From: a virus
Length of the DNA stretch: 64,000 nucleotides
Reading direction: 5' to 3' (one strand)
Virus record (IMG/VR): IMGVR_UViG_3300017963_000277
Coordinates: 1-64,000 of that record
Shown here in pieces: positions 3,841 through 53,334 of the stretch (its first letter is position 1; every line of letters starts with the position of its first letter). The position numbers were made by a program, and so were the translations under genes. A model generated the notes under the pieces. It searched no databases. It saw only the letters and a program-made list of their open reading frames with translations, and was not told the origin of the DNA.

Positions 3841-4384
3841 ATGGAAATGGAAACGTGAGCCTAAACTACTACTTGGATGTAACATACCGAAACCTCTCCA
3901 CGGCGTAGCTCCTAGAGTAGTTTTAGGTACGCCGTGGTGGGATAAAGTTCGGAGAGAGGCATACGAGTCTACGAACTTTCATTGTAAGGCTTGCGGTATT
4001 TCAAAGTACCAAACGAAGCAGGGAGTACTGGACGCTCACGAGCGTTACGAAGTCGACTACCTTAGTGGTAAGCTCTACTACATTGAAGCGGTGCCTCTTT
4101 GTAAAGACTGCCACAACTTTATTCACGACGGTAGACTTCAGTGGCTACTCGATACTAGGAAGATCAGGCACCAAGAGTTTACGCGGATTATCCGCCATGG
4201 TAATACCGTCCTGAGAGAAGCTGGACTAGTACGCCTAACGGCGGCAGAACGAGTCGTAGAGCTTAAGAGTCTAATAGCTAACGGAGCGTTAGCCGCTTGG
4301 GAAGATTGGCGACTAGTCGTAGACGGTAAAGAGTACCCACCGAAATTCAAAACCGAAGCAGAAGCGGATAGACATTATGCCTAA
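3833..4384 (+). CDS. HNH endonuclease-like protein
   Basis: The 183-residue protein carries CKAC at about residue 47, then a His-Glu pair (DAHERYEVDY) and VPLCKDCHNFIH at about 87-98. These are the zinc-coordinating cysteines and the histidines of the beta-beta-alpha-metal HNH fold. HNH proteins cut DNA as homing endonucleases, packaging nicking enzymes or repair nucleases. The position directly before the DNA polymerase gene allows a replication or recombination role. It starts at GTG overlapping the stop of the zinc protein gene and ends 8 bases into the polymerase gene. Confidence 0.7.
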   Translation: MARWKWKREPKLLLGCNIPKPLHGVAPRVVLGTPWWDKVRREAYESTNFHCKACGISKYQTKQGVLDAHERYEVDYLSGKLYYIEAVPLCKDCHNFIHDGRLQWLLDTRKIRHQEFTRIIRHGNTVLREAGLVRLTAAERVVELKSLIANGALAAWEDWRLVVDGKEYPPKFKTEAEADRHYA

Positions 4385-6458
4385 GGTTCTAGCGTTAGAT
4401 ACTGAGACGACTGGTTTAGACCTCTACCACGATGCTATGCCGTACTTCGTTACGACTTGCGACGATAAAGATAACCAACTCTACTGGCACTGGAGAGTCT
4501 GTCCGGCTACGCGTCAACCTATCGTCCCCAGACAAGACCTCATCGAGATTCAAAGACTTATCGACGCTGCGAAAATCGTCGTATTGCAAAACGCTAAGTT
4601 TGACTACCACGCTTTGAGAAACGTATTCGAAGCTAACCACGTAAAGTTTCGTTGGGACTGGTCGAAAGTACGGGATACTCTACTAAGCGGACATCTCTTA
4701 TCGAGTCTTAACCGTCACGACCTCTCTACGATGTCGCTAGTTTATCTAGGTATCGATATAGACGGCTATAACGAAGCTCTAAAGGATGCCTGTCAAAAGG
4801 CTAGGCGGATAGCGAAGAAGGAGTTTCCCAAATGGAAGATCGCTGAGGCAGGTCTGAAGGGAATGCCGAGTGCTAAGGGCAGCGTTTGGAAATACGATGC
4901 CTGGTTACCTAGACAAATAGCTGAAGCGTCAGAGTATCCTCCGGACCACGAGTGGTTTACCGTCCTAGAGAACTACGCGAACATGGATAGTGCCGCTACG
5001 ATTCGTCTCTACAAAAAGCATCTTCGTAAGATGAAGGAACGTAAGCTACTAGCTATCTATAGAGAACGCCTTAAGCTCCTTCCTATCGTTGTCGACATGG
5101 AAGACTTTGGCGTAACCTATTCAGAGTCTAGGTTAAACGAGTTACTAGGAGAGTATCAAAACCAATCAGCTGCCCTTAATGACGATTGCGTTAGTCTATC
5201 TAAAAGTATCGGCAGTGAAGTAACCTTACCAAAGAGCGGTACAAATACCTCTCTATTAGAGTTTGGAGAAAAGTATCTTGAGCCCTTTATGGGGATAGTA
5301 GATGCTTCCGGTTTTGTAGGCTCAGGGGCCAAAGGTAAAGACGTAGCAAAGAGGAAAAACATAAGAACACCGACTGGAAAACTTCGCATGGGTAGGGCGG
5401 ATCTGTTAGCTTGTCTAGAAGCTGCTAAAGTTTTATCCGAAGACCAACGAATACCTAGATTCTTGGAGAGCTTACTAGAGAAGCGTAGACGAGACACGGC
5501 AATAACCTACATGAATAGTTACGTCAAATTCTCTCTCCCTAAAAAGAGAGATGCGAGAGTCCTTCACCCGTCGTTGAATACAACCGGTACAAATACGTTA
5601 CGTTGGTCGAGTAGTAATCCCAACGAACAAAATATCAGTAAGCAAGAGGGTTTCAACCTACGCTACTGTTTTGGTCCGGCTAAAGGTAGAGAGTGGTGGT
5701 CTCTCGACGCTAATAACATCGAACTACGAATACCAGCGTACGAAGCAGAAGAAGATGAGATGATAGTCCTATTCGAGAAACCCGATGAGCCTCCATACTT
5801 CGGTAGCAATCATCTACTCGTATTCGATATTCTTTGGACTAAGCGTCTTAAACTAGATACAAGCGATCCAGAATACCTTCTAAAAGCAAAGAAGAAGTAC
5901 GCAAGTACAAACTACCAATGGACGAAGAATGGAAACTTCGCAGTACAATACGGAGCTGTACCAGAAAGCGGTACGGCGGATAGAGCTTATCATAAAGCCG
6001 GAGCGCAAGAGCTAGTTCAAGCTCGTTTTGCTAAGATGAAAAAGCTCAACGATAGGATGGTAGAACACGCTACGAAGTATGGTTACGTAGAGACGATACC
6101 CGATAAGACCGTAGATCCTTCTAGAGGGTATCCGCTCGAATGCGAAAGACAGTACGGTAGGGTCAAACCTACAGTACCTCTTAACTACCACGTTCAGGGT
6201 ACGGCGATGTGGTGGATGATGAAAGCGATGATACGTTGCTATAACTACCTTACTGATCTCAGTCGTAGACGTCGGAAGGAGTATAAAATGATTATGCAAG
6301 TCCACGACGAGATTGTATTTGACTTTCCGTATAGACCGGATAAACGCAACCTATCAATCGTCAAGAAGGTAGCCAAGCTGATGGAAGAAGGAGGCAACGA
6401 CATCGGCATACCTACGCCGGTAAGTATCGAATACCATAAGAACAACTGGAGTGAGTAG
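4377..6458 (+). CDS. Family A DNA polymerase with 3'-5' exonuclease
   Basis: The 693-residue product has a DEDDy exonuclease domain first: Exo I LDTETTGL (D8, E10), Exo II NAKFDYH, Exo III YANMDSAAT. The polymerase domain follows with motif A LDANNIELRIPAY, a motif B region TKNGNFAVQYGA and motif C QVHDEIVFDF. No 5'-3' flap-exonuclease domain is present, as usual in phage enzymes. It should be the replicative polymerase and would have to accept 5-hydroxymethyl-dUTP if the neighbouring cassette works as proposed. ATG start inside the end of the HNH gene. Confidence 0.95.
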   Translation: MPKVLALDTETTGLDLYHDAMPYFVTTCDDKDNQLYWHWRVCPATRQPIVPRQDLIEIQRLIDAAKIVVLQNAKFDYHALRNVFEANHVKFRWDWSKVRDTLLSGHLLSSLNRHDLSTMSLVYLGIDIDGYNEALKDACQKARRIAKKEFPKWKIAEAGLKGMPSAKGSVWKYDAWLPRQIAEASEYPPDHEWFTVLENYANMDSAATIRLYKKHLRKMKERKLLAIYRERLKLLPIVVDMEDFGVTYSESRLNELLGEYQNQSAALNDDCVSLSKSIGSEVTLPKSGTNTSLLEFGEKYLEPFMGIVDASGFVGSGAKGKDVAKRKNIRTPTGKLRMGRADLLACLEAAKVLSEDQRIPRFLESLLEKRRRDTAITYMNSYVKFSLPKKRDARVLHPSLNTTGTNTLRWSSSNPNEQNISKQEGFNLRYCFGPAKGREWWSLDANNIELRIPAYEAEEDEMIVLFEKPDEPPYFGSNHLLVFDILWTKRLKLDTSDPEYLLKAKKKYASTNYQWTKNGNFAVQYGAVPESGTADRAYHKAGAQELVQARFAKMKKLNDRMVEHATKYGYVETIPDKTVDPSRGYPLECERQYGRVKPTVPLNYHVQGTAMWWMMKAMIRCYNYLTDLSRRRRKEYKMIMQVHDEIVFDFPYRPDKRNLSIVKKVAKLMEEGGNDIGIPTPVSIEYHKNNWSE

Positions 6459-6459
6459 T

Positions 6460-7338
6460 ATGATCCCTGAAGACCCAACCGAACGTTTTCTATACTGGAT
6501 AAAGGAACGCCACGCGATCCACCTACGTAAAGAGAGAGGAGAACCAAAACCCTGGACAACTGATCCGGTTATGCGTGAGTATTTCTTTACCAATCCGTAC
6601 CGCGAAAACGATAAGACGACGGTATGGTTCAGAGAGAATATCCGTGAACCGTTCGCCTACCATCCCGACGTCGATCAAGTGATGGCTACGATTATCTTCC
6701 GTTGGTTTAACTACATACCAACCGGAGAGATACTGCTCGACCAAGGGCTGCTCGTAAAGTGGAGTAAGGCTAAGACTCTCCGTATCTTGGGAAAGATACG
6801 AGACCGTAAAGAGAAAGTATTCACCGGAGCGTTTATGATAAACTCTCCAGCGGGTAAGCCTAAGCTGGAAGCTATCTGCGAGCGTATTCAGAACGTCTGG
6901 GTAGATCGTAAGAACTTAACCGCGAAGATTGTAGAGGTATCTTCTCTCCAGGAAGCTCACGAAGCGTTAACCGCTTACGACGGGCTAGGCGGATTCATGG
7001 CTTACGAAGTCGTGTGCGACCTCCGGTATACGAACCTACTAAGAGACGCTACGGACGTTCTGACGTGGTGTAACCCTGGTCCCGGAGCTATACGCGGTCT
7101 ATACCGTATCGCTGAGGAGCCAACCGGTAAAGCTAACAACTCTAGTTCTCCGGCGTGGCCTAAGGATTGGCTAAAGCGTATGAAGAAACTTCTCACGTTA
7201 GCTCGTAAGAAGATTCATACGAAGCCTAGGCTGGAGATGCGAGAGATAGAGCATAGCCTCTGCGAGTTCGATAAGTACGAACGAGCTAGGCTAGGCGATG
7301 GTAAGATGAAGAGGAGATACAATGGTTATTCAGATTAG
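6460..7338 (+). CDS. 5-hmdU DNA kinase helical-domain protein (DNA base hypermodification)
   Basis: The roughly 292-residue helical protein has the pattern PKPWTTDPVMREYFFTNPYR followed by ENDKTTVWFRE near residues 30-60. I recognise this as the signature of the all-helical domain found fused to, or next to, the P-loop kinase acting on 5-hydroxymethyl-dU in phage DNA. The next gene encodes exactly such a P-loop kinase and overlaps this one by 17 bases, so the fusion of other phages appears split here. ATG 6460 is preferred over GTG 6451 because GGAG lies 9 bases upstream of it. Family fairly sure; exact contribution to the reaction is inferred. Confidence 0.75.
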   Translation: MIPEDPTERFLYWIKERHAIHLRKERGEPKPWTTDPVMREYFFTNPYRENDKTTVWFRENIREPFAYHPDVDQVMATIIFRWFNYIPTGEILLDQGLLVKWSKAKTLRILGKIRDRKEKVFTGAFMINSPAGKPKLEAICERIQNVWVDRKNLTAKIVEVSSLQEAHEALTAYDGLGGFMAYEVVCDLRYTNLLRDATDVLTWCNPGPGAIRGLYRIAEEPTGKANNSSSPAWPKDWLKRMKKLLTLARKKIHTKPRLEMREIEHSLCEFDKYERARLGDGKMKRRYNGYSD

Positions 7339-7873
7339 GGGCACGAGCGGTAGCGGTAAGACTACCGTCATGCGTAAAGTTATGGAGGAGTACAAGTGGG
7401 CTAAGCACTTTATCGACGGTAGAAAGAATCCACTATTTTACACAGCGAAGAAAGGAAAGATTGCGGTCTTAGGTCATTACGAAGGACTAGCGTGCGGCGG
7501 TTGCGATACAATAGGTAGTGCTCGCCAAGTCTTCGACGTGATGAAAGAGGTAGACGCTGAAGTTATTCTCGCTGAAGGATTACTCCTAAGCGAAGATACG
7601 AAGTGGGCGTTACAGATGGGGGATGTCTTAGGAGAGTCTCTACAGGTTGTATTCCTAACAACCCCACTCGACCAGTGCTTAGATAGAATAAAACAAAGGA
7701 GAAGTGCCGCTGGTAATACTAAACCACTAAACCCAGCCAATACGACCAATCGGGTAGGAGTTATTGAACGGGCTAGAGTTAAGCTAACTGCCGCGAACAT
7801 AAAATGCGTACGTAGAGCATCGACTCAAGCTCATCGAACAGTTCTCAAGTGGGTAGATCAGGCTTCACGCTGA
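7322..7873 (+). CDS. P-loop kinase, probable 5-hydroxymethyl-dU DNA kinase
   Basis: The 183-residue P-loop NTPase has Walker A GTSGSGKT at residues 7-14, followed by strands and an acidic Walker B-like DAEVILAEGLLL and a lid-like segment (RIKQRRSAAG). In hypermodified phages this kinase phosphorylates the 5-hydroxymethyl group of dU in polymerised DNA and creates the leaving group for later steps. The assignment to DNA substrates rests on the neighbours (helical partner, aGPT-Pplase-type, radical SAM and PLP enzymes); by sequence alone it could be a small-molecule kinase. GAGGAGATACA precedes the ATG. Confidence 0.75.
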   Translation: MVIQIRGTSGSGKTTVMRKVMEEYKWAKHFIDGRKNPLFYTAKKGKIAVLGHYEGLACGGCDTIGSARQVFDVMKEVDAEVILAEGLLLSEDTKWALQMGDVLGESLQVVFLTTPLDQCLDRIKQRRSAAGNTKPLNPANTTNRVGVIERARVKLTAANIKCVRRASTQAHRTVLKWVDQASR

Positions 7874-7885
7874 TAGGAGAAAGAA

Positions 7886-9265
7886 ATGGATCAGGAACAA
7901 TCTTGGATAACGACGAAGATGGTTGGAGAAGACGACAACGCTGCCGCCACCAACTACGAATATTTTATGCGTCCTGAACCTAGGGATAACTTAGGTCCGA
8001 TCAAGACTGTTTACGACAAGGTCTTGAAAAGAAAGATCAAGGTACGAGAGATCAAGATCGGCATGACGCGTAACGCATCTGAGGAGAATCGCAAAACCGT
8101 CTTAGCCTACTTAGAACCGTACCCTCATATGAGGATTGATAAAGCGAAACCTCTTCAGGGTTGGTATAAGAATAAGCACGAACCAAAGGGTGTTAGACCA
8201 AGACCGTGTTTTACTGAGGCTATTCTTACTGAACCCTACGGCGGTTGGTGCGCGGTAGGCTGCGCGTTCTGCTACGTAAACTCTGGATTTCGCGGATACC
8301 GTGGTACCGGCCTTATAACCGTTCCGAATAACTACGGCGAACAGATTAGGAAGCAGCTGCGTCCAGTACGTCGTGGAGCGGCAGTTTACTTCAGTAGTTT
8401 TACTGATCCGTTTCTTCCACTAGAAGAACTCTACCATAACTCAGAGGAGGCAGCTGAAGCTTGCGTAGAAGTGGGGTTGCCTATCTTCTTCTTGAGTCGA
8501 CTGCGCTACCCTTCTTGGGCTATACGTCTTCTTCGAAAGAATAAGCATAGCTACGCGCAGAAATCGATTAACACTTGTAGTAGCTCCGACTGGAGAAAGC
8601 TATCTCCAGGTGCTCTACCGTTAGCCGACCACTTCAAAGATATACGACGGCTAAAGAAAAACGACATCTACGTTTCTATACAAGTCAACCCGATCATACC
8701 GGGAGTGACTACGCACGGTCACGTTAAGTCTCTATTTCGCAAGTTAGCGAACGCCGGAGCAGATCACGTCATCGTTAAGTTCGTTGAAGCTGGATACTCT
8801 TGGGCCCCAGCGATGGTAGATCGTATTACTAAACGCTTCGGCCCAGAGCGTGGCGGAGCATTCGAGTCTCTCTTCCAGGAGAATATCGGCGGACAACGGA
8901 CAGTAAACGAAGCGTATAGAATGGCGGCTCACGATAAGTATATTCGTTGGGCTTCTGACTACGGGTTAACGTACTCCGTTTGCTATGAGTATCGTTACGA
9001 GCGAAACGAAAGTGGTAAAATCGTCGACAAGACCGGAGTTAGTATCGGTAGAGAGTATACGACTTCGGACCAGTGCCACGGCCATCGCGTTCCTGTCTAT
9101 ACGCGGAGTAGTTCCGAAGAAAAGTTCAAACCTCTATCGGTTTGTCCCCCAAGCGGTTGCCTCTATTGCGTAGACGATAACGGTGAACCGCCGTGCGGAG
9201 ATGAGTTAGCCGGCACGGCTATCGCGATCAAGCCTAAGCATCTTAAAATTCCGATGGGGGGTTAG
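7886..9265 (+). CDS. Radical SAM enzyme, candidate base-hypermodification isomerase
   Basis: The 459-residue protein has the canonical CxxxCxxC cluster motif as GWCAVGCAFCYV near residue 130, which binds a 4Fe-4S cluster and S-adenosylmethionine. The C-terminus adds a cysteine-rich tail (VCPPSGCLYC, PPCGDE), suggesting a second Fe-S or zinc site. The core resembles the spore-photoproduct-lyase-like branch of DNA-acting radical SAM proteins. In phages with aminoalkyl-thymidines a radical SAM enzyme rearranges the amino-acid side chain on the base. Placement between the kinase and the transferase supports the same role. The exact reaction is inference. Confidence 0.8.
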   Translation: MDQEQSWITTKMVGEDDNAAATNYEYFMRPEPRDNLGPIKTVYDKVLKRKIKVREIKIGMTRNASEENRKTVLAYLEPYPHMRIDKAKPLQGWYKNKHEPKGVRPRPCFTEAILTEPYGGWCAVGCAFCYVNSGFRGYRGTGLITVPNNYGEQIRKQLRPVRRGAAVYFSSFTDPFLPLEELYHNSEEAAEACVEVGLPIFFLSRLRYPSWAIRLLRKNKHSYAQKSINTCSSSDWRKLSPGALPLADHFKDIRRLKKNDIYVSIQVNPIIPGVTTHGHVKSLFRKLANAGADHVIVKFVEAGYSWAPAMVDRITKRFGPERGGAFESLFQENIGGQRTVNEAYRMAAHDKYIRWASDYGLTYSVCYEYRYERNESGKIVDKTGVSIGREYTTSDQCHGHRVPVYTRSSSEEKFKPLSVCPPSGCLYCVDDNGEPPCGDELAGTAIAIKPKHLKIPMGG

Positions 9266-9266
9266 T

Positions 9267-10055
9267 ATGGACGTGCTAGAGTTCGGTAAGATCCTAGTCA
9301 CGACCGAAGACTTGGATCCACTGTACGTTGCTCTCTATCGAGCGAAGATGCCGAAACGTAAATTAGACCGGTGGCTAGTAGCCTACTGGTGCTATTACCA
9401 CGCGGGTTTATGTTCGAGAGTAGCTGAGAGCAGAGACTTCTTCGGAGAGTTACGGAAAATAGCCCTAGGAGGTACGCTATACCCACGCGGTACGGAGCGT
9501 AGACACTTTCGGGGTAAACTAGCCGAAGATTCCGTAGAGTCTCTTAGGCAGCGATTCTCGGACGCTACGGAGATAGTAGAGTGGCTCCTAGAAGTCGGAC
9601 CTAGGGCCGATAAGATCATGAAACGGGTAACGGAGTTACACGGCTTCGGAGAATGGATAAAGTGGAAAGTGCCCGACATGCTAGATCGATTGGAGGTAGG
9701 TAGGGTTGAGTTTCGTACCGAAGACTTGCGACAGATGTTTAAGACGTCTAAGCAAGGAGCTGAGGTAACTTGTGAAGCGTGCGGTATCGACTCCGCCGAT
9801 TCGCTTCTTTCCGCTCACGAATACCTCATTGAAAACTTAGGGTATCTAACCGCCCCACCTATTCACGAGCGTACTATCAACGTTCAGGAAACAGAGACTA
9901 TTTTCTGTAAGTGGAAATCTCATCTAGGGGGGCACTACCCGATTGGAAAAGATACGAGAGAACTAATCCACGGTTGTCTTAAGTTCCCTTGCTCTACTAA
10001 TAAGAAACTGGTGGGAATCCTCAAAGCTATCCGAAGGAGATTACCAAGTGGCTAA
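9267..10055 (+). CDS. aGPT-Pplase clade 3-like / amino acid:DNA transferase
   Basis: The 262-residue protein has YPRGTERRHFRG at residues 71-82 and a helix-hairpin-helix-like ELHGFGEWIKWKVPDMLDRL segment. Both are hallmarks, as I remember them, of the alpha-glutamyl/putrescinyl thymine pyrophosphorylase superfamily, which has a DNA-glycosylase-like fold. Members displace the phosphate-activated 5-hydroxymethyl group of dU with an amine or amino acid. A CEAC pair lies in the C-terminal third. The ATG follows the radical SAM stop by one base and the gene end overlaps the PLP gene, so all act as one operon. Substrate unknown. Confidence 0.75.
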   Translation: MDVLEFGKILVTTEDLDPLYVALYRAKMPKRKLDRWLVAYWCYYHAGLCSRVAESRDFFGELRKIALGGTLYPRGTERRHFRGKLAEDSVESLRQRFSDATEIVEWLLEVGPRADKIMKRVTELHGFGEWIKWKVPDMLDRLEVGRVEFRTEDLRQMFKTSKQGAEVTCEACGIDSADSLLSAHEYLIENLGYLTAPPIHERTINVQETETIFCKWKSHLGGHYPIGKDTRELIHGCLKFPCSTNKKLVGILKAIRRRLPSG

Positions 10056-10875
10056 GATTATCGCTCAAGGCATGCTAGTACGCGGTACGCCTGTCGAAGA
10101 CCATCGTAGCAAGTACCAACTTCTAGTAAAACGCGAAGACAAGAGTTGTACGCCCCCAGGTCCGTACTTCTCGAAAACCAGAGGAGTTTACGCCCACGTC
10201 AAGAAACTCGATGCTCTCATCCCTGTAGGAGTTCTCGATACGTATCACTCTCAAGCAGGTCATGCGGTAGCTCGTGCCTGTAAGATCCTGGGAAGAAGGT
10301 GTATAAACTTCTACCCTGAGTATAAGTACGAACCGGGACCAAGACCTCCCCAGCTTCAAGCGAAAGCGTTAGGAGCGGAGCTAGTGGGTTTACCAGCTGG
10401 GCGTTCGGCTATTCTCTTTCACCAAGCTCGAAAGATCTGCGAAGGAGAAGGTGGCTACATGATGCCTAACGCTCTGAAGCTTGAAGAGTCGGTAATCGAA
10501 ACCGCGAAAGAGGTGACTAGAGACTTAGCCAAAGTTCGTCGGGTTATCATTCCAGCTAGTAGTGCTACGTTAGCTGCCGGAGTGATTAAAGGCTTTCTAA
10601 AACTGGGTCGAACACCTCCGATGTTTATAATCCATTTAGGTTATACTCGTTCCCACGACCAAGTGGATCGATACATTCGCCAAAAGACTAATCTACCGGC
10701 GAAGTATCCACTAACGATTATCGACGAAGGTTACGCTTACAAAGACAAAGCGGTATCCGGACCAAGTCCCCCATGGCCTTGTAACCCATACTACGATCTC
10801 AAAGCGTTTCGTTGGTGGATGAGAGAGCATAACAATTTTAAGAAGTACCTAACACTTTTCTGGAATATAGGCTAA
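10048..10875 (+). CDS. Fold-type II PLP-dependent enzyme (tryptophan synthase beta-like)
   Basis: The 275-residue protein has the fold-type II layout. PYFSKTRGVY (Lys43 is the likely PLP Schiff base) corresponds to the SxKxRG motif. YHSQAGHAVARACKILG matches the phosphate/substrate loop, and IPASSATLAAGVIKGF matches the glycine-rich PLP phosphate cradle. Free-living members are lyases and beta-replacement enzymes. In thymidine-hypermodifying phages a PLP enzyme acts on the amino acid attached to the base, for example by decarboxylation. The GTG start follows GAAGGAGATTACCAA. The enzyme class is solid; action on DNA is inferred from context. Confidence 0.78.
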   Translation: MAKIIAQGMLVRGTPVEDHRSKYQLLVKREDKSCTPPGPYFSKTRGVYAHVKKLDALIPVGVLDTYHSQAGHAVARACKILGRRCINFYPEYKYEPGPRPPQLQAKALGAELVGLPAGRSAILFHQARKICEGEGGYMMPNALKLEESVIETAKEVTRDLAKVRRVIIPASSATLAAGVIKGFLKLGRTPPMFIIHLGYTRSHDQVDRYIRQKTNLPAKYPLTIIDEGYAYKDKAVSGPSPPWPCNPYYDLKAFRWWMREHNNFKKYLTLFWNIG

Positions 10876-11666
10876 TGTATTTTCGCAACGTAGTCGTCGT
10901 TATTCCGGCTAAACGACCAGCCCCAATCAAGACTTTAGTTAACCACCGACCATCCTGTAAGGTATGGGTAATCTCTGATCCAGAAGTCTACGCCGATCAT
11001 CGACGTTGGGTGAAGGAACAGAATTTCAAAAACGTAGAGGTGAAGAAAGGTCGTAGCGGGCTCACCGCTCAAATAATTCACTGCTATCGTCTCGTTAAGC
11101 GTAGTAAGTTTCGCTATGCGTTCCGTATGGATGATGACTTGGATAGTAAAACGATAACGATGCGTAAGCCTTTCTACACTGACGTCGATACGCTTATAAG
11201 TATTTCACGACGGTGTATGGAGGAGCACGACGTAACGCTAGTAGGTCCGAATTCTACATCTAATCGAACTTGGTTGAAACCCGGTTACGGTAGATCGGCC
11301 GGTCATATCTCCGGGGGTCTTCAGATGTTTAGGGTAGTTCACCCTCCAGAGTTCTACTTAGATCCTAGAATCATCTACACCGAAGACGTTTATAGAGTCT
11401 GCGCTCACCGAGAGGCAGACGGTGCGGTAGGGCGGATACACTATATCGGTTTCGATAAGACTAGAGCGGTACAGAACCCTGTACGACCTAGAGAAGGGAG
11501 TTTAGTAGACGCTAAGATAGATGAAGAGATTATCTTAGAACGCTTCGCAGGATCAGTAAAACTCAACGGCTATCGTAAGGTTATGGTTGGTCCTAAGCAT
11601 AAGAGAGAAGAAGTAGACGTGCCCAACTGGCGGCAGGTAGGTAGAGCAAAACCGGCAAGGAGTTAG
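10875..11666 (+). CDS. GT-A-like glycosyltransferase in the modification cassette
   Basis: The 263-residue protein opens with a nucleotide-binding strand (VVVVIPAKR) and has MDDDLDS at residues 85-91, a DxD-type metal/UDP-sugar motif. HISGGLQMFR and YTEDVYRVCAHRE follow, as in acceptor/catalytic loops of GT-A enzymes. It is embedded in the base-modification operon (ATG overlaps the PLP stop), so a hypermodified base in DNA is the likely acceptor. Glycosyltransferases of the TAGT type associate with such systems, but I cannot confirm membership. Lipid or protein acceptors remain possible. Confidence 0.65.
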   Translation: MYFRNVVVVIPAKRPAPIKTLVNHRPSCKVWVISDPEVYADHRRWVKEQNFKNVEVKKGRSGLTAQIIHCYRLVKRSKFRYAFRMDDDLDSKTITMRKPFYTDVDTLISISRRCMEEHDVTLVGPNSTSNRTWLKPGYGRSAGHISGGLQMFRVVHPPEFYLDPRIIYTEDVYRVCAHREADGAVGRIHYIGFDKTRAVQNPVRPREGSLVDAKIDEEIILERFAGSVKLNGYRKVMVGPKHKREEVDVPNWRQVGRAKPARS

Positions 11667-11668
11667 TA

Positions 11669-12643
11669 ATGAAAACTAAATCTAACGTTAAGTATTGGAC
11701 CTACGGCGTGGAACTAGAGTATGCCGATTGGGATACTAGAAACGGTTGGGAAGGATACGAACGCGATCCAGAACCGAACATCTGTAATAGCAACGGCATC
11801 GCGGCAGATCCTAGACTCATCTCGTATCCATTCGGAGGAGAAATCAATACACCACCTACGGATACGGTTGACGAACAAGTCGACTTGATGACTAGGTTTC
11901 TTCGTCGGTATCCTAGAGCCACGGTGAACTATCGTACCGGGATGCAAGTTCATATCCGGATACCTGGACTGTCGAAGGATCTTAAGCTACTTAAGCGGAT
12001 TCAAAAGTACGTGTCGGAAAACTATGAGGTCTTTGACTTAGTTGATCCGCTACCGTACCCAACCGGAGAACAGTATCCGGAGAAGGAAGAACTCAAGGCG
12101 GCACGTAAGCGTTACCACTGGATGCGTATGAGTCACTTTTCTAGGATACCTCTCAACCGAGTGGAGAAGCAGCTGGCGGCATCGACGGTTCAAGAGTTCT
12201 TAGAAGCAGAAGTGCCGCGAAGTAGAGAGGGTAAAGTTTTGTGGCACGCTCAAGCTAGAGCGGCAGTTAACCTTCGTCAGCTTCTCCAAACCGATACGAT
12301 TGAGTTTCGACACTTTCCGGGAGTCGTTGACGAGACCGAACTCTACAACTCAATCTCCTGGTGTCGCGACTATCTTGAAGCCGCACTAGAAGGACACTCG
12401 GCAACGAAACTCTTCAACGCTTACTACGCTGACGTTGACTTTCCTAAGCTCGATAGAATCTACGAGCACTGGATGGAGAAGCGTTGGAAAGCTACGTCGA
12501 TTTCAAAAACGAAACGTCCGGAGGTAGAGGCGAACGTAGCGACGATTCTTGACGGAGAGTTCGATGACGTAAGCGAACGGTACGAGTGGCTGAACCCAAA
12601 GTATCAGTCACCTAATCCTCTCGGGATAGACTGTTATTCTTGA
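11669..12643 (+). CDS. Amidoligase-family (carboxylate-amine ligase) protein
   Basis: The 324-residue protein starts with YGVELEYADWD and continues with GGEINTPPTD, TGMQVHIRIPG, AVNLRQLLQTDTIEFRHFPG. This is the pattern of the amidoligase family with a glutamine-synthetase-like fold: acidic metal ligands in ELEY and GGEI, the HVH-like motif, and the TIEFR strand. These ATP-dependent enzymes join a carboxylate to an amine. As the last gene of the hypermodification operon it could extend the base side chain by an amide bond, or make the donor molecule beforehand. Family well supported; substrate unknown. GGAGTTAGTA precedes the ATG. Confidence 0.75.
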   Translation: MKTKSNVKYWTYGVELEYADWDTRNGWEGYERDPEPNICNSNGIAADPRLISYPFGGEINTPPTDTVDEQVDLMTRFLRRYPRATVNYRTGMQVHIRIPGLSKDLKLLKRIQKYVSENYEVFDLVDPLPYPTGEQYPEKEELKAARKRYHWMRMSHFSRIPLNRVEKQLAASTVQEFLEAEVPRSREGKVLWHAQARAAVNLRQLLQTDTIEFRHFPGVVDETELYNSISWCRDYLEAALEGHSATKLFNAYYADVDFPKLDRIYEHWMEKRWKATSISKTKRPEVEANVATILDGEFDDVSERYEWLNPKYQSPNPLGIDCYS

Positions 12644-12647
12644 GACG

Positions 12648-12674
12648 AAAAAAGCCCGTCGATTAGGACGGGCT
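12648..12674 (-). terminator. Leftward Rho-independent terminator
   Basis: AGCCCGTC (12653-12660) pairs with GACGGGCT (12667-12674) around a 6-base loop. Read leftward, the stem is followed by TTTTTT (A-run at 12648-12653). It ends the single leftward gene just to its right. On the + strand no T-run follows, so it should not stop the rightward cassette. Confidence 0.85.
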
Positions 12675-12694
12675 GAGGCGAACGGCGGTGGCCG

Positions 12695-13099
12695 TTAGAC
12701 TTTCTTCTTTCCTGCGGGAGTTATCGTATAGACGACGACTTTTTTGCCGTCTACTTCTGCTTCGGACTTCCGAACGAGCTTGCGGTTGATGAGGTTATGA
12801 GCGTGAACCTTTCGTTGATTGATTTCGTCGTTGACGTAACCGGTTTGGTTACCGAAAACTTCCGTTCGAAGGTCGATAGCTTCGCAGACCTGCGGGCGGG
12901 TAACGGACTTACGAACCTTCTTGAGGTAAGCCAGAATCCTCAGCTGAGTACCGGTAAGCTCTCCGACCTCTTTCTTAGCGGTAGCTTTCTTCGTCGTCGT
13001 CTTCTTGACCGTCTTCTTCGCCGTAGCTTTCTTCGCCGTAGCTTTCTTCGCAACCGTCTTCTTCGCCGCCACTGCCTTCGTCGTTTTCTTCGTAGCCAT
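12695..13099 (-). CDS. Histone H1-like protein: Lys/Ala repeat tail plus winged-helix-like C-terminus
   Basis: Residues 1-43 are AKK/TKK repeats (for example TVAKKATAKKATAKK), like bacterial Hc1/H1-type nucleoid proteins. Residues 46-134 look like a winged-helix domain (TGTQLRILAYLKKV, SVTRPQVCEAI, KVHAHNLINRKLV, VVVYTITPAGKK). It probably coats or bridges DNA and may also repress transcription. It is the only leftward gene in a long rightward block, with its own AAGGAGCGGCAAA ribosome site and a private terminator, so it is likely regulated separately. Confidence 0.8.
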   Translation of the reverse strand: MATKKTTKAVAAKKTVAKKATAKKATAKKTVKKTTTKKATAKKEVGELTGTQLRILAYLKKVRKSVTRPQVCEAIDLRTEVFGNQTGYVNDEINQRKVHAHNLINRKLVRKSEAEVDGKKVVVYTITPAGKKKV

Positions 13100-13197
13100 T
13101 TTGCCGCTCCTTAAAAGGAAAGAGTAAAAAGTAGTAACCGACTACCTACTAGTATCGGGATAGAGCACCCAAAGTAAATAGGGATAGACCCAGAAAA

Positions 13198-13770
13198 ATG
13201 AAAAATTCCAGGATTATTTTCGTAGACATAGACGAAGTTTTAGCGGATTTTACTACACCCGCCGTAGAAATCCACCGCTGGACGAGAAATCAACTCGAAC
13301 GAGAGCGGAGTCCAGGCCAGTGGAGTATCGAGAAAACGATGGGCTTGAGTACGAACGAATTTTGGGAGCCTATCAACGCTTTAGGTACGCGGTTTTGGAT
13401 CGACATAAAACCGCTACCTTGGTTCGAAGAACTACTAGCAGTTCTTGAAGGACTTAACGACCAAACGGAGTCGGAATGGTTTCTCTTGTCGAGTCCTTCG
13501 GTATCTCCTTCAGCTCATCTAGGAAAGTGTATTTGGATACGCAACTACTTCGGCACGCAGTTCGATAGGTTCTTCATCACTCCGTACAAAGAACTCTTCG
13601 CCCAAGCGGATAGAATCCTCATAGACGATAGCGAAGAGAACTTGTTTAAGTTCGAACGTCATGGAGGTAAGGGCGTTCTATTTCCAAGTAGAGGTAACGC
13701 GATGTTTCACGAAGCGGCAAACCCGATTCCTTACGTAAAGGAGCAACTCAATGCACTTGTACTATCCTAA
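13198..13770 (+). CDS. HAD-family 5'-deoxyribonucleotidase-like phosphatase
   Basis: The 190-residue protein has HAD motif I as FVDIDEVLADF (nucleophile Asp near residue 10), a motif II-like LLSSPS, and motif IV as ILIDDSEENL. The spacing matches 5'(3')-deoxyribonucleotidases. It would dephosphorylate deoxynucleoside monophosphates. Directly upstream of the TS-family gene, it may drain dTMP or another unwanted monophosphate so that a modified nucleotide replaces it; this is inference. The upstream 98-base gap to the divergent histone-like gene must hold both promoters, but I see no convincing -35/-10 pair. Confidence 0.7.
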   Translation: MKNSRIIFVDIDEVLADFTTPAVEIHRWTRNQLERERSPGQWSIEKTMGLSTNEFWEPINALGTRFWIDIKPLPWFEELLAVLEGLNDQTESEWFLLSSPSVSPSAHLGKCIWIRNYFGTQFDRFFITPYKELFAQADRILIDDSEENLFKFERHGGKGVLFPSRGNAMFHEAANPIPYVKEQLNALVLS

Positions 13771-14815
13771 CGTCAATCACGCTTTCCGTGGACTAGTTCT
13801 CGACATGAACGAGCAGATTAGAATCCACAACCATCCGGAGAAGACTAGCCTCAAAATCGTAGCAACGCCTAGCCGGTATGGGGACGTCTACGCTTACCGT
13901 GACCCCGTAACCGTGACGTACGTTAGCCCAACCCAAAGAGTCTTATTCAACGAAGGTAGAGACTGTAATCCGTTCTTCCATCTGTTCGAATCCATCTGGA
14001 TGTTAGCTGGTCGCCAAGACGTCGACTCATTGGCTTACTTTCTTCCCAGGATGCGAGAGTTCTCCGATGACGGAGAAACATTTCACGGAGCGTACGGCTA
14101 TCGTTGGCGTCATCAGTTCGGATACGATCAGTTGAAAGTCATAATCGAAGAACTAAAGAAGGATCCAACGAGTCGTCGCTGCGTTATACAGATGTGGGAT
14201 GCTTCAGATATAGAACGTATCTATAGGGATGAAAAACGACACGACCTTTGGACGGCTACTCACGGCGGTAAAGACGTACCTTGTAATACCCAGGCTTACT
14301 TTCGAGTAGTGAACGATAGGTTAGACATGACCGTTACTAATCGGTCTAACGATATGGTCTGGGGTATGCTAGGAGCGAACGTCGTACACTTCTCCTACCT
14401 ACAGGAGTATGTAGCTAACTGTATAAAGTTGCCGGTAGGTTACTACCACCAATTTACTAACAACCTTCACGTCTACAAAAAGACGTGGACTCCAGAGAAG
14501 TGGAAAGTAGGTTCTTTGGTTTCTGACCTACGCTTCGCTGCGGATAAATCTTGTCCGATACCTTTAGTTGAAGACCCAGATAGATTCTTCGACGAAGCCA
14601 ACGCTTTTATCGACGGCAACGAAACCCTACTCCATGAACCCTACTTAGCTAGGGTAGTCTCTCCGATGGTACTAGCTTTCCGCCACCATAAGGAACGGGA
14701 CTATCAAAGAGCTTTCGAAGCTGTGAATCTAGTTTTGGACGAACAGTGGAGTATAGCCGGTAAGGCTTGGCTCAGGAAACGAGAAGAGAATTGGAGAAAG
14801 AAGAATGGAAACTAA
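13751..14815 (+). CDS. Thymidylate synthase family, probable dUMP hydroxymethylase
   Basis: The 354-residue protein has the TS landmarks: the GAYGYRWR folate/dimer segment, phosphate-binding arginines in SRRCVIQMWD, the catalytic Cys at residue 178 in DVPCNT, and TVTNRSNDMVWGMLGAN. Asn210 sits where TS enzymes recognise uracil; dCMP hydroxymethylases carry Asp there, so dUMP is the predicted substrate. The usual His after the catalytic Cys is Asn (PCN, not PCH). With the downstream-type base-modifying genes nearby, 5-hydroxymethyl-dUMP formation is more likely than plain dTMP. A true ThyA is the alternative. AAAGGAGCAACTCA precedes the ATG. Confidence 0.8.
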   Translation: MHLYYPNVNHAFRGLVLDMNEQIRIHNHPEKTSLKIVATPSRYGDVYAYRDPVTVTYVSPTQRVLFNEGRDCNPFFHLFESIWMLAGRQDVDSLAYFLPRMREFSDDGETFHGAYGYRWRHQFGYDQLKVIIEELKKDPTSRRCVIQMWDASDIERIYRDEKRHDLWTATHGGKDVPCNTQAYFRVVNDRLDMTVTNRSNDMVWGMLGANVVHFSYLQEYVANCIKLPVGYYHQFTNNLHVYKKTWTPEKWKVGSLVSDLRFAADKSCPIPLVEDPDRFFDEANAFIDGNETLLHEPYLARVVSPMVLAFRHHKERDYQRAFEAVNLVLDEQWSIAGKAWLRKREENWRKKNGN

Positions 14816-15368
14816 GTATAAACCGGTACTAACCAAAAAGGATTTCGTTAGGAGATATGAGAAGGGAGAGTTTGGTAACCGTTCTCCTACTTGGCCGACG
14901 ATAGAGGCTTGGGCTTGTTCTATGCCTAGTCCTAGAACGCTATACCATATCCGTAACCGGATAGCCGGAGGAGAGACGTGGTACGACGTACCGGGGTATA
15001 ATATACCTAGGCTTTGGTATCGAGCGAAGAAGAAAATCGGAGAGTCTAATCTGTATATCTCTGCGATGGCTCCTACTAAGCTCACCGTGATCCAAGGAGA
15101 AGTCCGAAGAAGTGTTGACTACTTGGATCTAACTTATAGTACGGTTGTAGCTCCGATGCGTACGGCGTTAGCTACGGAGACAAAACACGCGAACTGGTAC
15201 GGAGCGTATAACCTTCTCAGGGCAAACCTAGATGATAACAGCTGGTGGTGGTTGTGGGAACTACTTAACCGCTACCTAGACCACGTCGTTGAATTCTCTA
15301 CCTACTCCAAACCTTGGGGAACACTACCTAACTTCAATACAGTCTTTTGGGAAGTGAGAAAATACTGA
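14805..15368 (+). CDS. Hypothetical 187-residue protein
   Basis: A soluble alpha-helical protein rich in Trp and Tyr (SWWWLWELLNRYLDHVVEF near the end), with no motif I can name. It overlaps the TS-family gene by 11 bases and its TGA shares bases with the ATG of the MazG-like gene, so it is part of the nucleotide/modification operon. It may serve the hypermodification pathway, but nothing in the sequence proves this. Confidence 0.65.
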   Translation: METKYKPVLTKKDFVRRYEKGEFGNRSPTWPTIEAWACSMPSPRTLYHIRNRIAGGETWYDVPGYNIPRLWYRAKKKIGESNLYISAMAPTKLTVIQGEVRRSVDYLDLTYSTVVAPMRTALATETKHANWYGAYNLLRANLDDNSWWWLWELLNRYLDHVVEFSTYSKPWGTLPNFNTVFWEVRKY

Positions 15369-18190: not shown

Positions 18191-18442
18191 GTGATCGATT
18201 CTAAAGTCAGCTGCGATTACTGCGGAGCGTTAATGCGAGAAGGAGCCAACACCTGTTCTAGGTGCGGCTTCTACCAACCTAGCGAACAGTATATTGAAGA
18301 AGCTACGGCTAGGATACGGATGGGTTGGTCTAATCGGGAACACCTCTCCAGAGCAGGTATAACTCAAGAGAAGAGAGTAGAAACGAAAATAGCTACCTTC
18401 GTAACAAACGGTAGAGTTGATAGGAGAGAGTATCGTGACTAA
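18191..18442 (+). CDS. Small zinc-ribbon protein
   Basis: GTG 18191 is chosen because AAGGAGTCTCCA precedes it; the frame is open from ATG 18158 without a ribosome site. The 83-residue protein starts with a zinc ribbon (CDYCGAL and CSRCGFY). A helical segment typical of a short DNA- or protein-binding tail follows. Its end overlaps the sulfotransferase start. Function unknown. Confidence 0.6.
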   Translation: MIDSKVSCDYCGALMREGANTCSRCGFYQPSEQYIEEATARIRMGWSNREHLSRAGITQEKRVETKIATFVTNGRVDRREYRD

Positions 18443-19088
18443 GTTCGTCTACGTAACCGGCCAAGGTCGTAGTGGTTCGCTATTTCTAGCTACGCTTCTA
18501 AACCAAGCGAAGAACGCTACGATATACCATGAGCCTCTTAACGATGCCCTACCCTACTCCGTTTCGACTAAGAGCGAAGCTCAAGCGAAGAACTTTGCTA
18601 GCGTTCGCTCTCGGTGGATAAAGGCTCAAGCTAAGAAGGTGGGTACGCCTATCTTCGGTGAGGTTAACTCGTTCCTTCGTAGGACGGTCCCGCACTTTAA
18701 GGGCTTACTGGGACCGCTACTAACGTTCCATCTCGTTAGGGACGGTAGAGACGTGGTACGCTCGATGGTTAGTCGTAACGTACTAGGCGGAGACTTTACC
18801 GCCGTATGTCGCTACTGGGGGACTGAGGTAGAGTATGTTAGCCGTTACGTAAAGACGGCGATACGCTTGGAGGATCTACTCTCGGGCTATCCTTCCTTCA
18901 GGAAACATATCCTGGAGCCTACCGGGATAAAGTTAGACGAGTACACCTGGACCTCGATGAAGAAGGAGAAGCTCAATAAGTGCTACGAATATACGATACC
19001 TTCGTGGGACGATTGGGATGCTAAGCAGCGAACTACATTTAAGTTGTACTGCGGTAAGATGATGTTGAAGTTCGGTTACTGGAAATAA
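18435..19088 (+). CDS. PAPS-dependent sulfotransferase
   Basis: The 217-residue protein starts at GTG 18435, with AGGAGAG 6-12 bases upstream. The 5'-phosphosulfate loop is VTGQGRSGSLFLATLL at residues 6-21 and the 3'-phosphate site is HLVRDGRDVVRSMVSR, both diagnostic of the sulfotransferase fold. It transfers sulfate from PAPS to an acceptor hydroxyl or amine. Placement between the primase gene and small accessory genes does not name the acceptor; the modified base, a cell-surface glycan or a small molecule are all possible. Confidence 0.8.
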   Translation: MTKFVYVTGQGRSGSLFLATLLNQAKNATIYHEPLNDALPYSVSTKSEAQAKNFASVRSRWIKAQAKKVGTPIFGEVNSFLRRTVPHFKGLLGPLLTFHLVRDGRDVVRSMVSRNVLGGDFTAVCRYWGTEVEYVSRYVKTAIRLEDLLSGYPSFRKHILEPTGIKLDEYTWTSMKKEKLNKCYEYTIPSWDDWDAKQRTTFKLYCGKMMLKFGYWK

Positions 19089-51172: not shown

Positions 51173-51654
51173 ACCCTTGCGAATGTAAACCCGATCCTAC
51201 CGGTAAAAGTATTTGGTGTCCCCGCCACCGAATGTATAAGGGCCCACGTTGGGTAAAACTTTGTCAAACCAATAAGGTATACTTTGAAGCTTGGGAAACC
51301 GGAGTAGGACCAGGGCAGAATCTAGTTAAAGCTCAAGACGTAGTAAAGAAAACTAAGACGCCAGGTCCAGGAGACTTTCTACATTCACTCCTAGGAAAGC
51401 TAGGCATCAACCCTACGAAGAAGTGTAAGTGTAAATCGCGTATTCATCTAATGAACGTTTGGGGGCCAGACGGTTGTGAGAAGAATCTAGACAAGATCGA
51501 GAATTGGTTAAGAGAAGAAGCCAAAGCTCAGGACTTACCCTATTGGGGTTTCGCGGCAAAACTTTTGATCAGAAGGGCTATTAGTAATGCGAGACGAGCG
51601 GCAAGTAAGGTGGGCGGTGGGAATAACGACAGTACCGAAACGGATCAACGATGA
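51169..51654 (+). CDS. Cys-rich putative zinc protein
   Basis: The 161-residue protein starts CECKPDPTGKSIWCPRHRMY, then has GPRWVKLC and CKCKSRIHLMNVWGPDGC. Together these give at least two plausible metal sites. The C-terminal part is helical (LDKIENWLREEAKAQ). It overlaps the glycosyltransferase gene by 68 bases. The pairing with a glycosyltransferase gene looks conserved in style (WGPDGC, then helices), but I cannot name the family. Confidence 0.55.
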   Translation: MNPCECKPDPTGKSIWCPRHRMYKGPRWVKLCQTNKVYFEAWETGVGPGQNLVKAQDVVKKTKTPGPGDFLHSLLGKLGINPTKKCKCKSRIHLMNVWGPDGCEKNLDKIENWLREEAKAQDLPYWGFAAKLLIRRAISNARRAASKVGGGNNDSTETDQR

Positions 51655-53329
51655 GTTGTTAAACCGCACGATAGAGTCTCTATCTAATGGGGGTTTCAAA
51701 TGCGATGTAGTCTTCGTCGATGGAAACGGAGAAACCGGATTGCTGAAGAATATCAGCCCATCTATCCACGTAGTCCAGAGACAAGCAAAGATTGGAGCCT
51801 TTGGGAATTTCATTCTCGCCGCGTGGGAACTACTCCTGCGTTTCCCGAAGGCAGACCGCTACGCTATATTCCAAGACGACTTGGTTTGCGTACAAAACAT
51901 GCGCCAGTACCTCGAAACATGCGAGCTAGGCAAAAACGAATACTGGAACCTCTACACGTTTCCTCATAACGTTCGACCTACTAACGGTTGGCATCGTTCG
52001 GACCAGATGGGAAAGGGTGCCGTCGGTCTCGTATTCTCTAACCGTTCTCTCCGAATGATGCTAGCCGCAGAGCATATGACTAATCGTCCACGTGGTCGTA
52101 AGAACGATGATCGTTCTATAGACGGTGCGGTTGTAACCTCGATGCGTAAAGCTAACGGCGTAGAGCTAGTTCATACTCCGTCTCTCCTACAGCATACGGG
52201 AGAAGTCTCAGCGATAGGGAACAGCGTTCAGCAGAAAGCCAATACCTTTCCTGGAGAAGACTTCGACGCGATGACGCTAGTTAGTAAAGCTCCGAAGCGG
52301 AGCGTAGATCCTAAGAACTATCGCATCGGACTAGTCGGCTATAACTGCGCTAGCGGGCTGGGTATGCTTAACTACCAAACGGCTACCTACGCAGAGATAG
52401 ACACTTGGTTGGTTAAGCCTCACCGCAACCTAGTGACCAAGCCCCTACACCCAGACGTCGACTCCTTCGTTTGTAGAGGTAACGACAAGCAGAAGATTGT
52501 AGAGTTTCTAGACCGCATAGACGTCCTACTGTTCTTCGAAGTTCCCTACTACCCTCAACTCTTAGAACTAGCTCAGGAGCGAAACAAGCGTATCGTATGC
52601 GTCCCTATGGTCGAGTGGCTACCCGAAAACGTTCATAAGGCTTGGACTAAATATGTAGACCAATTTATCTGTCCTACGGAGCAGTGCTATAACCTTCTCA
52701 AAGATACCCTACCCTGCTCCTACTTTCCTTGGCCGGTAGACACTGGTAGATTCTCCTTCAGGATAAGACCACGATGCGAAAAGTTTCTATTCATCAACGG
52801 ACTAGGCGGGTGGAAAGGTCGTAAGGGATCAGAGTTCGTACGCCAAGCTAAAGAGCTATGGCCGGAGATGCCTTTAGTAATCCGCTCTCAGATTCCCATC
52901 AAGTGGACGGACGATGTTATCTACCACAACAAACGTACAGAACTAGAAACCGACCTCTACGACCTAGGTGACGTCCTACTAGCTCCGCATACCGTAGACG
53001 GTATCGGGCTAGAGATTAGTGAAGCGATGGCTAGCGGGATGCCGGTAATAACTCCTGACGCTCCTCCATGGAATGAGATACCTGCGATACGTCGTCTTAA
53101 GTATCGTCTCAAGTATCAAAAAGTAGGACGTACGATGCCTTGGGTAGAGTGCGATCCAGAGTCGATAGTAGAAGCCTGTAAGTCGATCTACAAAACCGAC
53201 CTAACGGCGGAGAGTCGTAGAGCTTGGGAGTGGGCTAGGGCGGAGCAGTGGAAAGATAGAGCAGCTGCGTTTACCGAACTGGTACGTACCGGTAAGAATC
53301 CCGATCCATTAGTTATCAAGATGAGGTAG
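51587..53329 (+). CDS. Two-domain glycosyltransferase
   Basis: The 580-residue fusion has a GT-A-like N-terminal half (VGITTVPKRINDELLNRTIE, DVVFVDGN, AIFQDDLVCV with a DD motif, GKGAVGLVFSN, RKNDDRSIDGAVV). From about residue 225 a GT-B-type half follows (RIGLVGYNCASGLGMLNY, GLGGWKGRKGSEFVRQAKEL, GLEISEAMASGMPVITPDAP), the last a GT4-type sugar-nucleotide site. The two domains may act in series on virion glycoproteins or host glycans. The end of the tail block suggests fibre decoration, though DNA is possible. Confidence 0.8.
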   Translation: MRDERQVRWAVGITTVPKRINDELLNRTIESLSNGGFKCDVVFVDGNGETGLLKNISPSIHVVQRQAKIGAFGNFILAAWELLLRFPKADRYAIFQDDLVCVQNMRQYLETCELGKNEYWNLYTFPHNVRPTNGWHRSDQMGKGAVGLVFSNRSLRMMLAAEHMTNRPRGRKNDDRSIDGAVVTSMRKANGVELVHTPSLLQHTGEVSAIGNSVQQKANTFPGEDFDAMTLVSKAPKRSVDPKNYRIGLVGYNCASGLGMLNYQTATYAEIDTWLVKPHRNLVTKPLHPDVDSFVCRGNDKQKIVEFLDRIDVLLFFEVPYYPQLLELAQERNKRIVCVPMVEWLPENVHKAWTKYVDQFICPTEQCYNLLKDTLPCSYFPWPVDTGRFSFRIRPRCEKFLFINGLGGWKGRKGSEFVRQAKELWPEMPLVIRSQIPIKWTDDVIYHNKRTELETDLYDLGDVLLAPHTVDGIGLEISEAMASGMPVITPDAPPWNEIPAIRRLKYRLKYQKVGRTMPWVECDPESIVEACKSIYKTDLTAESRRAWEWARAEQWKDRAAAFTELVRTGKNPDPLVIKMR

Positions 53330-53334
53330 ACGCT

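Follow-up and report, generated by a model that had tools for sequence, protein, structure and literature searches.

Introduction

To our knowledge, the chemistry of very few thymidine hypermodifications has been worked out. Lee et al. 2022 reportedly described a pathway of phage M6 that proceeds via glycine, a radical S-adenosylmethionine (SAM) isomerase and a pyridoxal phosphate (PLP) decarboxylase. The DNA of M6 contains 5-(2-aminoethyl)deoxyuridine, 5-NedU (PMC6449724). In Synechococcus phage S-B43, CmoY, an asparagine-synthetase-like protein, adds glycine to 5-carboxymethylcytosine (PMC12783734). Here we analyse a nine-gene cassette at 6451-14815 of a 64,000-nt stretch (the window, positions 1 to 64,000) of the IMG/VR virus record IMGVR_UViG_3300017963_000277, which is 66,846 bp long; it joins homologues of the M6 genes to a glycosyltransferase (GT) and an amidoligase (AL).

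The cassette resembles that of M6/YuA (gp51-gp58) in having an amino acid:DNA transferase (ADDT), a fold-type II PLP enzyme, a radical SAM enzyme, a split kinase for 5-hydroxymethyldeoxyuridine (5-hmdU) and a thymidylate synthase (TS) homologue, with 27-57% identity. The two gene orders were compared and differ; M6 is without AL and GT, and its HD gene is missing here, where an NT5C gene is present. Pseudomonas phage PaMx11 (ADDT, flavin lyase, acetyltransferase, kinase, helical kinase subunit, TS, HD) shares the ADDT, kinase, helical subunit and TS and has an acylating enzyme where other cassettes have AL, but it relies on a flavin lyase and an acetyltransferase, whereas the present cassette has the radical SAM and PLP enzymes and AL. 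CmoX/CmoY of S-B43 (PMC12783734) likewise use ATP to form an amide on a base of phage DNA, but the enzyme family and the base are different.

By homology, the core of the cassette is the M6/YuA 5-NedU route, which is already known, and the branch formed by AL and GT appears to be new. That the cassette serves thymidine hypermodification is well supported by the families of its genes. We regard it as an even call whether the cassette yields 5-aminoethyl-dU, to whose amine AL attaches a carboxylic acid, with a sugar added by GT. Read in this way, the cassette predicts a new base, 5-aminoethyl-dU bearing an amide and perhaps a sugar, and points to AL and GT as the genes that make it.

Results and discussion

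The core genes are of the M6 type

An earlier note on this DNA had described positions 6460 to 14815 as a complete-looking thymidine hypermodification cassette and had named nine gene families in it. All nine were found where they had been placed, on the plus strand, by profile searches and, for GT, by a fold model; position 6460 proved to be an internal ATG, and the open reading frame (ORF) of the helical kinase subunit begins at GTG 6451. The arrangement of the nine genes is well beyond chance.

6451..7338, plus strand: 5-hmdU DNA kinase, helical subunit (HMUDK_hel PF18723, E 9e-55)
7322..7873, plus strand: probable P-loop subunit of the 5-hmdU DNA kinase (phrog_800, 3e-18; Walker A GTSGSGKT)
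7886..9265, plus strand: radical SAM enzyme of M6 gp53 type (phrog_9252, 5e-186; CX3CX2C at residue 122)
9267..10055, plus strand: ADDT of glycinyltransferase type (PF18724, 1e-14)
10048..10875, plus strand: fold-type II PLP enzyme of M6 gp52 type (PALP PF00291, 9e-12; phrog_7093, 1e-59)
10875..11666, plus strand: GT-A-fold glycosyltransferase, accessory (AlphaFold2/Foldseek; DDD motif)
11669..12643, plus strand: amidoligase of GS/GCS fold, accessory (Amidoligase_2 PF12224, 6e-7; AlphaFold2/Foldseek)
13198..13770, plus strand: 5'-deoxynucleotidase of NT5C type (PF06941, 3e-9)
13751..14815, plus strand: thymidylate synthase homologue (Thymidylat_synt PF00303, 4e-21; phrog_5131, 4e-99)

Every step of the M6-type route has a homologue (TS-like hydroxymethylase, two-part kinase, ADDT, radical SAM and PLP enzymes). 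The word complete-looking is apt for the 5-NedU pathway, as are the calls of thymidine hypermodification and of the individual families. Identity to M6 is highest for the radical SAM enzyme (57%, gp53), followed by the PLP enzyme (45%, gp52), TS (41%, gp58), ADDT (39%, gp51), the helical subunit (35%, gp55) and the P-loop kinase (27%). The last two, encoded by adjoining genes, are closer to PaMx11, at 43% (gp50) and 42% (gp49), respectively. ADDT matches the solved structures 25qc 'amino acid:DNA transferase' (E 4e-47) and 8z2m 'Glycinyltransferase' (E 5e-45).

The catalytic motifs are intact across the cassette (Walker A, CX3CX2C, PLP lysine block, DDD, AL invariants, PCN/GAN). The PLP enzyme, a putative decarboxylase, keeps the lysine block FSKTRG, and the radical SAM protein is a putative glycinyl-thymidine isomerase. 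TS, a putative dUMP hydroxymethylase, has the PCN and GAN blocks in common with M6 gp58, and the Asn of the GAN block is that of the M6 and PaMx11 proteins. The NT5C-type deoxynucleotidase probably controls nucleotide pools; its gene also occurs in the AL-less relatives L112, L114, L116, L117 and L119 (L numbers denote viral loci). The P-loop gene bears the database label 'Terminase small subunit' (phrog_800) and the radical SAM gene the label 'DNA repair photolyase'; both were set aside as annotation carry-over rather than function.

AL belongs to a viral family tied to DNA hypermodification

AL scores 30.1 bits against PF12224, for which the cut-off is 22. Because searching PDB sequences with AL and GT profiles gave no meaningful match, structure models of both proteins were made. 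The AlphaFold2 model of AL (pLDDT 90) has as its best Foldseek matches GshAB (bifunctional glutathione synthetase), GS (glutamine synthetase), YbdK and GCS (gamma-glutamylcysteine synthetase). In the GS/GCS superfamily, ATP activates a carboxylate and an amine attacks. All 15 invariant residues of the AL family are intact in the protein encoded at 11669-12643; G13, E15, E17, E58, H95, R197, E212 and R214 are invariant in 36 sequences, and by analogy the conserved acidic residues would be metal/ATP residues.

A scan with an AL alignment matched 96 viral relatives, 80 of which were kept, and removal of repeats and near-identical proteins left 60 lineages; the other cassette genes were never used as query. 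Cellular matches were confined to 2 contigs among 84,980 bacterial and archaeal genomes, and the family is nearly virus-specific. In the fetched flanks, ADDT accompanies AL in 53/60 lineages, the P-loop kinase likewise in 53/60, and a low-molecular-weight phosphatase (LMWP) in 52/60. Given the first two of these counts, AL belongs to DNA hypermodification. In one locus, L007 (9986-11347), AL and the LMWP domain are fused in a single ORF. In the literature on thymidine hypermodification that was searched, comprising titles, the starts of abstracts and passages, with key papers of the field lying outside this coverage, no amidoligase paper was found.

The nearness of ADDT to AL in most cassettes also suits a different role, in which AL makes a free small molecule, e.g. 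a gamma-glutamyl amine or a dipeptide, that ADDT moves to phosphorylated hmdU, so that AL never touches DNA. Most GS/GCS-fold ligases act on free metabolites, which counts in favour of this idea. We nevertheless think it improbable, since ADDT matches solved glycinyltransferases, a preformed conjugate would be ill-suited to the subsequent radical SAM/PLP or flavin lyase steps, and AL occupies a slot that is elsewhere filled by an acetyltransferase.

GT and AL are accessory additions in a variable slot

A DNA-level search of the window against phages gave no match, and relatives were therefore sought by protein. A scan for the radical SAM family found 79 new viral loci besides L005; the counts below are out of 81 loci, with M6 counted once. 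Within these M6-type cassettes AL is uncommon, being present in 5/81 with the 6451-14815 cassette included, and GT is present in that cassette only. In the nearest relatives, L112-L119, the radical SAM enzyme is 68-74% identical, and the order helical subunit, kinase, radical SAM enzyme, ADDT is common to all. Where the contig is long enough, polA lies upstream and TS, a small gene and primase lie downstream; the order polA, helical subunit, kinase is the same in L113, L116 and L117. In L112-L119, neither AL nor GT was found in the interval from PALP to NT5C/TS. Since the nearest relatives keep the same gene order without either gene, GT and AL are accessory additions to the core.

The region 3' of the PLP gene is a variable slot, which in related phages holds different genes or is empty. 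Between PALP and NT5C/TS, a methyltransferase-like gene was recognised by eye in L115 and L118 (Pfam 0.04 for L118, none for L115). In L117, a flavin enzyme and an aldo/keto reductase (PF00248, 5e-28) replace PALP. In L005, PALP is followed by a gene with a sulfotransferase-like GRSG motif, for which Pfam gave no match, and then by AL. Such differences in slot content between close relatives are expected of an arms race with modification-dependent host nucleases. As a separate observation, ADDT, an aldo/keto reductase and a flavin enzyme lie near the M6-type radical SAM gene, without a PLP gene, at L117 10197-11944, L146 5967-7785 and L161 5855-7745.

AL occurs on three backbones

The cassettes of the 60 AL lineages fall mostly into three backbones. 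The first consists of TS, ADDT, a flavin lyase, AL and LMWP (phage Simon, PQ683277; L006, L009, L014, L020 and others). The AL proteins of these five are 40-45% identical to that of the present cassette and likewise lie within an hmdU cassette, but they belong to the flavin lyase route, are paired with LMWP and have no GT beside them. The second backbone, with TS, ADDT, radical SAM enzyme, PLP enzyme and AL, includes the present cassette, L007, L017 and L154, and L005 fits it as far as its short contig reaches. The third combines TET/JBP, a class II glutamine amidotransferase (GAT-II), AL, LMWP, ADDT and kinase (L012, L053, L063, L082 and others), with TET/JBP in range in 26 lineages and representative matches to PF12851 (TET/JBP, 9e-23), PF18724 (ADDT, 2e-22) and PF13522 (GAT-II, 1e-9). 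It shares AL, ADDT and the P-loop kinase with our cassette; in contrast, its hydroxymethyl group presumably comes from the TET/JBP dioxygenase, it contains GAT-II, and it has no radical SAM enzyme, PLP enzyme or flavin lyase. In the cassettes L011, L032, L044, L075 and L021, the P-loop hmdU kinase is present in two or three copies.

The flavin enzyme of the first backbone matches the solved 'Flavin-dependent lyase' 8z2o (E 3e-73). Flavin lyase and radical SAM plus PLP enzymes are unrelated chemistries, each of which removes the carboxylate of the amino acid and leaves a primary amine on the base. AL accompanies both of these routes, and on this ground we propose that it acts on the amine. On the AL tree, at least 3 changes between the two routes are seen, including the supported pair L011 (flavin) and L017 (PLP); these changes are more independent than the GAT-II change, yet lie partly on weakly supported branches. 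Moreover, the order ADDT, flavin enzyme, AL-LMWP, kinase, helical subunit, TS in Simon, L006, L009 and L020 corresponds to ADDT, flavin enzyme, acetyltransferase, kinase, helical subunit, TS in PaMx11. AL-LMWP thus stands where PaMx11 has an acetyltransferase, so that AL fills the place of an N-acyltransferase. Both amine-making backbones are most simply read together if AL carries out an N-acyl transfer.

AL might instead use ammonia or an amine to amidate the carboxylate that the amino acid on the DNA still carries in N-alpha- or C-alpha-glycinyl-thymidine, giving a carboxamide base in a branch alternative to decarboxylation. Within the TET/JBP clade, the companion of AL is GAT-II, a source of ammonia, and no decarboxylase or lyase goes with it; GS, a fold relative of AL, uses ammonia. 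In the present cassette, the M6-type PLP enzyme would remove the very carboxylate in question, neither GAT-II nor TET/JBP gave a profile match in the whole 66.8-kb contig, and a carboxylate-removing enzyme is found in 21/24 lineages of the TS-type clade. We consider this alternative unlikely here.

GAT-II and the flavin or PLP enzymes never occur together: 36 lineages have GAT-II only and 21 have a flavin or PLP enzyme only, the remaining 3/60 having neither (two of them on short contigs). This exclusion (Fisher p 2.5e-13) was rejected as a test of the amine acceptor, because it amounts to one change on the AL tree. In line with an amine acceptor, a distant AL (30%) lies in a deazaguanine gene cluster of Vibrio phage 2.275.O (L022, 8866-13123) beside QueF (QueF_N, 9e-33), an enzyme that makes an aminomethyl deazaguanine base.

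Proposed pathway

On the reading that AL acylates the base amine, a derivative of 5-(2-aminoethyl)-2'-deoxyuridine would stand in for some of the thymidine in the phage DNA. The TS homologue would make hydroxymethyl-dUMP, which would be incorporated as 5-hmdU, and the two-part kinase would phosphorylate 5-hmdU in DNA. ADDT would then swap the phosphate for glycine to give N-alpha-glycinyl-thymidine, the radical SAM enzyme would isomerise the N-linked to a C-linked amino acid, and the PLP enzyme would decarboxylate the product to 5-aminoethyl-dU. These steps from hmdU to NedU are modelled on M6 by homology. The next step is new and is deduced from gene context: AL, with ATP, would activate a small carboxylic acid, perhaps glutamate as used by its fold relatives, and couple it to the primary amine of the base as an amide. 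Less securely, the GT-A enzyme might put a sugar on the finished side chain or on leftover 5-hmdU. The benefit to the phage would be protection against host nucleases.

Several points weigh against this pathway. AL could act on a free metabolite, and the TM-scores of its model to GS/GCS are low (0.3-0.4), although the top structural matches all belong to one superfamily. LMWP, the usual partner of AL, is missing from this cassette. In the TET/JBP cassettes AL is accompanied by GAT-II, which suggests ammonia as the amine there; a weak GATase_6-like gene near the AL of Vibrio phage 2.275.O suggests the same, and the exclusion of GAT-II by flavin or PLP enzymes is consistent with an amine acceptor without testing it. 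In the core, the P-loop kinase reaches 18.9 bits against the HMUDK_HMUD1 profile, below the cut-off of 27 (E 0.001), and the substrate assigned to TS leans on the general background that an Asn in the GAN block favours uracil over cytosine.

Tentatively, and with the chances somewhat against it, we suggest that the AL family, near-purely viral and of GS fold, serves amino-acid-type DNA hypermodification in general as a tailoring enzyme. It would build base amides across all three backbones, acylating base-linked amines in cassettes with a lyase or decarboxylase and amidating base-linked carboxylates in those with GAT-II, and in the present cassette the product would also be glycosylated, giving an undescribed base. 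The family is common to three kinds of phage cassette, and a testable rule follows from it: an amine-making route with AL means N-acylation, and GAT-II with AL means a carboxamide. A ligase that forms amides on DNA, if AL is one, would be useful as a labelling enzyme.

The glycosyltransferase

Profile searches gave no convincing family match for GT; a weak match is to phrog_842 (T-even HMC glucosyltransferase, E 0.014), and a tblastn search against phages gave none. The AlphaFold2 model (pLDDT 81) leads by Foldseek to the GT-A enzymes RmlT, TarP, TarS and SpsA, with E down to 5e-7, and the DDD motif at 86-88 is invariant among seven aligned homologues. A scan for the family found nine viral loci, about 7 of them independent. 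ADDT, the helical subunit, kinase or TS lies near GT in 6/7 other independent loci, none being seen in L106. By its fold, its place inside the operon and these neighbours, GT may perhaps glycosylate the base.

In the cassette of L101, which has TS and helical subunit, GT is followed at 8783-11232 by a relative of UDP-sulfoquinovose synthase (E 9e-97 to NF041015, short of its cut-off) and by another glycosyltransferase; these neighbours support a sugar role for GT. L100 (8719-9951), a TS and helical subunit cassette as in L101, also has a UDP-sulfoquinovose-synthase-like protein and a second glycosyltransferase directly 3' of GT. In L019 (12522-16408), five tandem diverged GT paralogues (26-31% identical to the cassette GT) lie between AL-LMWP and the hmdU kinase, which suggests that a sugar chain is assembled in steps or that the paralogues differ in specificity.

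The earlier note had placed AL and GT outside the pathways known to its author. Both are indeed accessory to the core; AL, on the other hand, recurs in many viral hypermodification cassettes, and so, more rarely, does GT. The recurrence bears on a further alternative, namely that plain 5-NedU is made as in M6 and that AL and GT serve elsewhere, in protein or surface modification. The nearest relatives with the same core and without the two genes agree with this, as does the presence of further glycosyltransferase genes at 51.6-54.2 kb, a region plainly separate from the cassette. Set against it are the frequencies with which AL and GT accompany hypermodification genes and the packing of the locus, where both overlap or abut genes of the core operon. 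We judge a role elsewhere to be improbable.

Gene packing and neighbouring genes

The tight packing from kinase to amidoligase described in the earlier note was confirmed and extends from polA at 4377 to the end of AL at 12643, neighbouring genes either overlapping or lying no more than 12 nt apart. The end of polA, at 6458, lies 8 nt inside the gene of the helical subunit, which in turn overlaps the P-loop kinase by 17 nt. Gaps of 12 nt (kinase to radical SAM enzyme) and 1 nt (radical SAM enzyme to ADDT) follow, then overlaps of 8 nt (ADDT/PALP) and 1 nt (PALP/GT), and a gap of 2 nt between GT and AL. An antisense, lysine-rich gene (12695-13099, minus strand) separates AL from NT5C, TS and a conserved small gene, which overlap one another.

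4377..6458, plus strand: DNA polymerase A-type (ORF; replication module hosting the cassette, in the same overlapping gene run)
14805..15368, plus strand: small conserved gene 3' of TS in hmdU cassettes (homologues only)

Homologues of the small gene sit after TS in L021, L102, L114, L115, L117-L119 and L177, and a Pfam search with it gave no match. The product of the minus-strand gene has a tail rich in lysine and alanine that resembles histone H1, and after it a winged-helix-like part; genes resembling it occupy the same position in L115 and L118. A plus-strand ORF at 12797-13114 and the u30 ORFs of relatives, apparent mirror frames of the lysine-rich gene, were rejected as genes. Near the cassette are an NDP-sugar epimerase/dehydratase (876-1919) and a sulfotransferase-like GRSG protein (18417-19088, no Pfam match), each a possible donor-making or tailoring enzyme. 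The two glycosyltransferases (group 1 type) at 51587-54231 lie downstream of structural genes and are apparently unrelated to the cassette GT.

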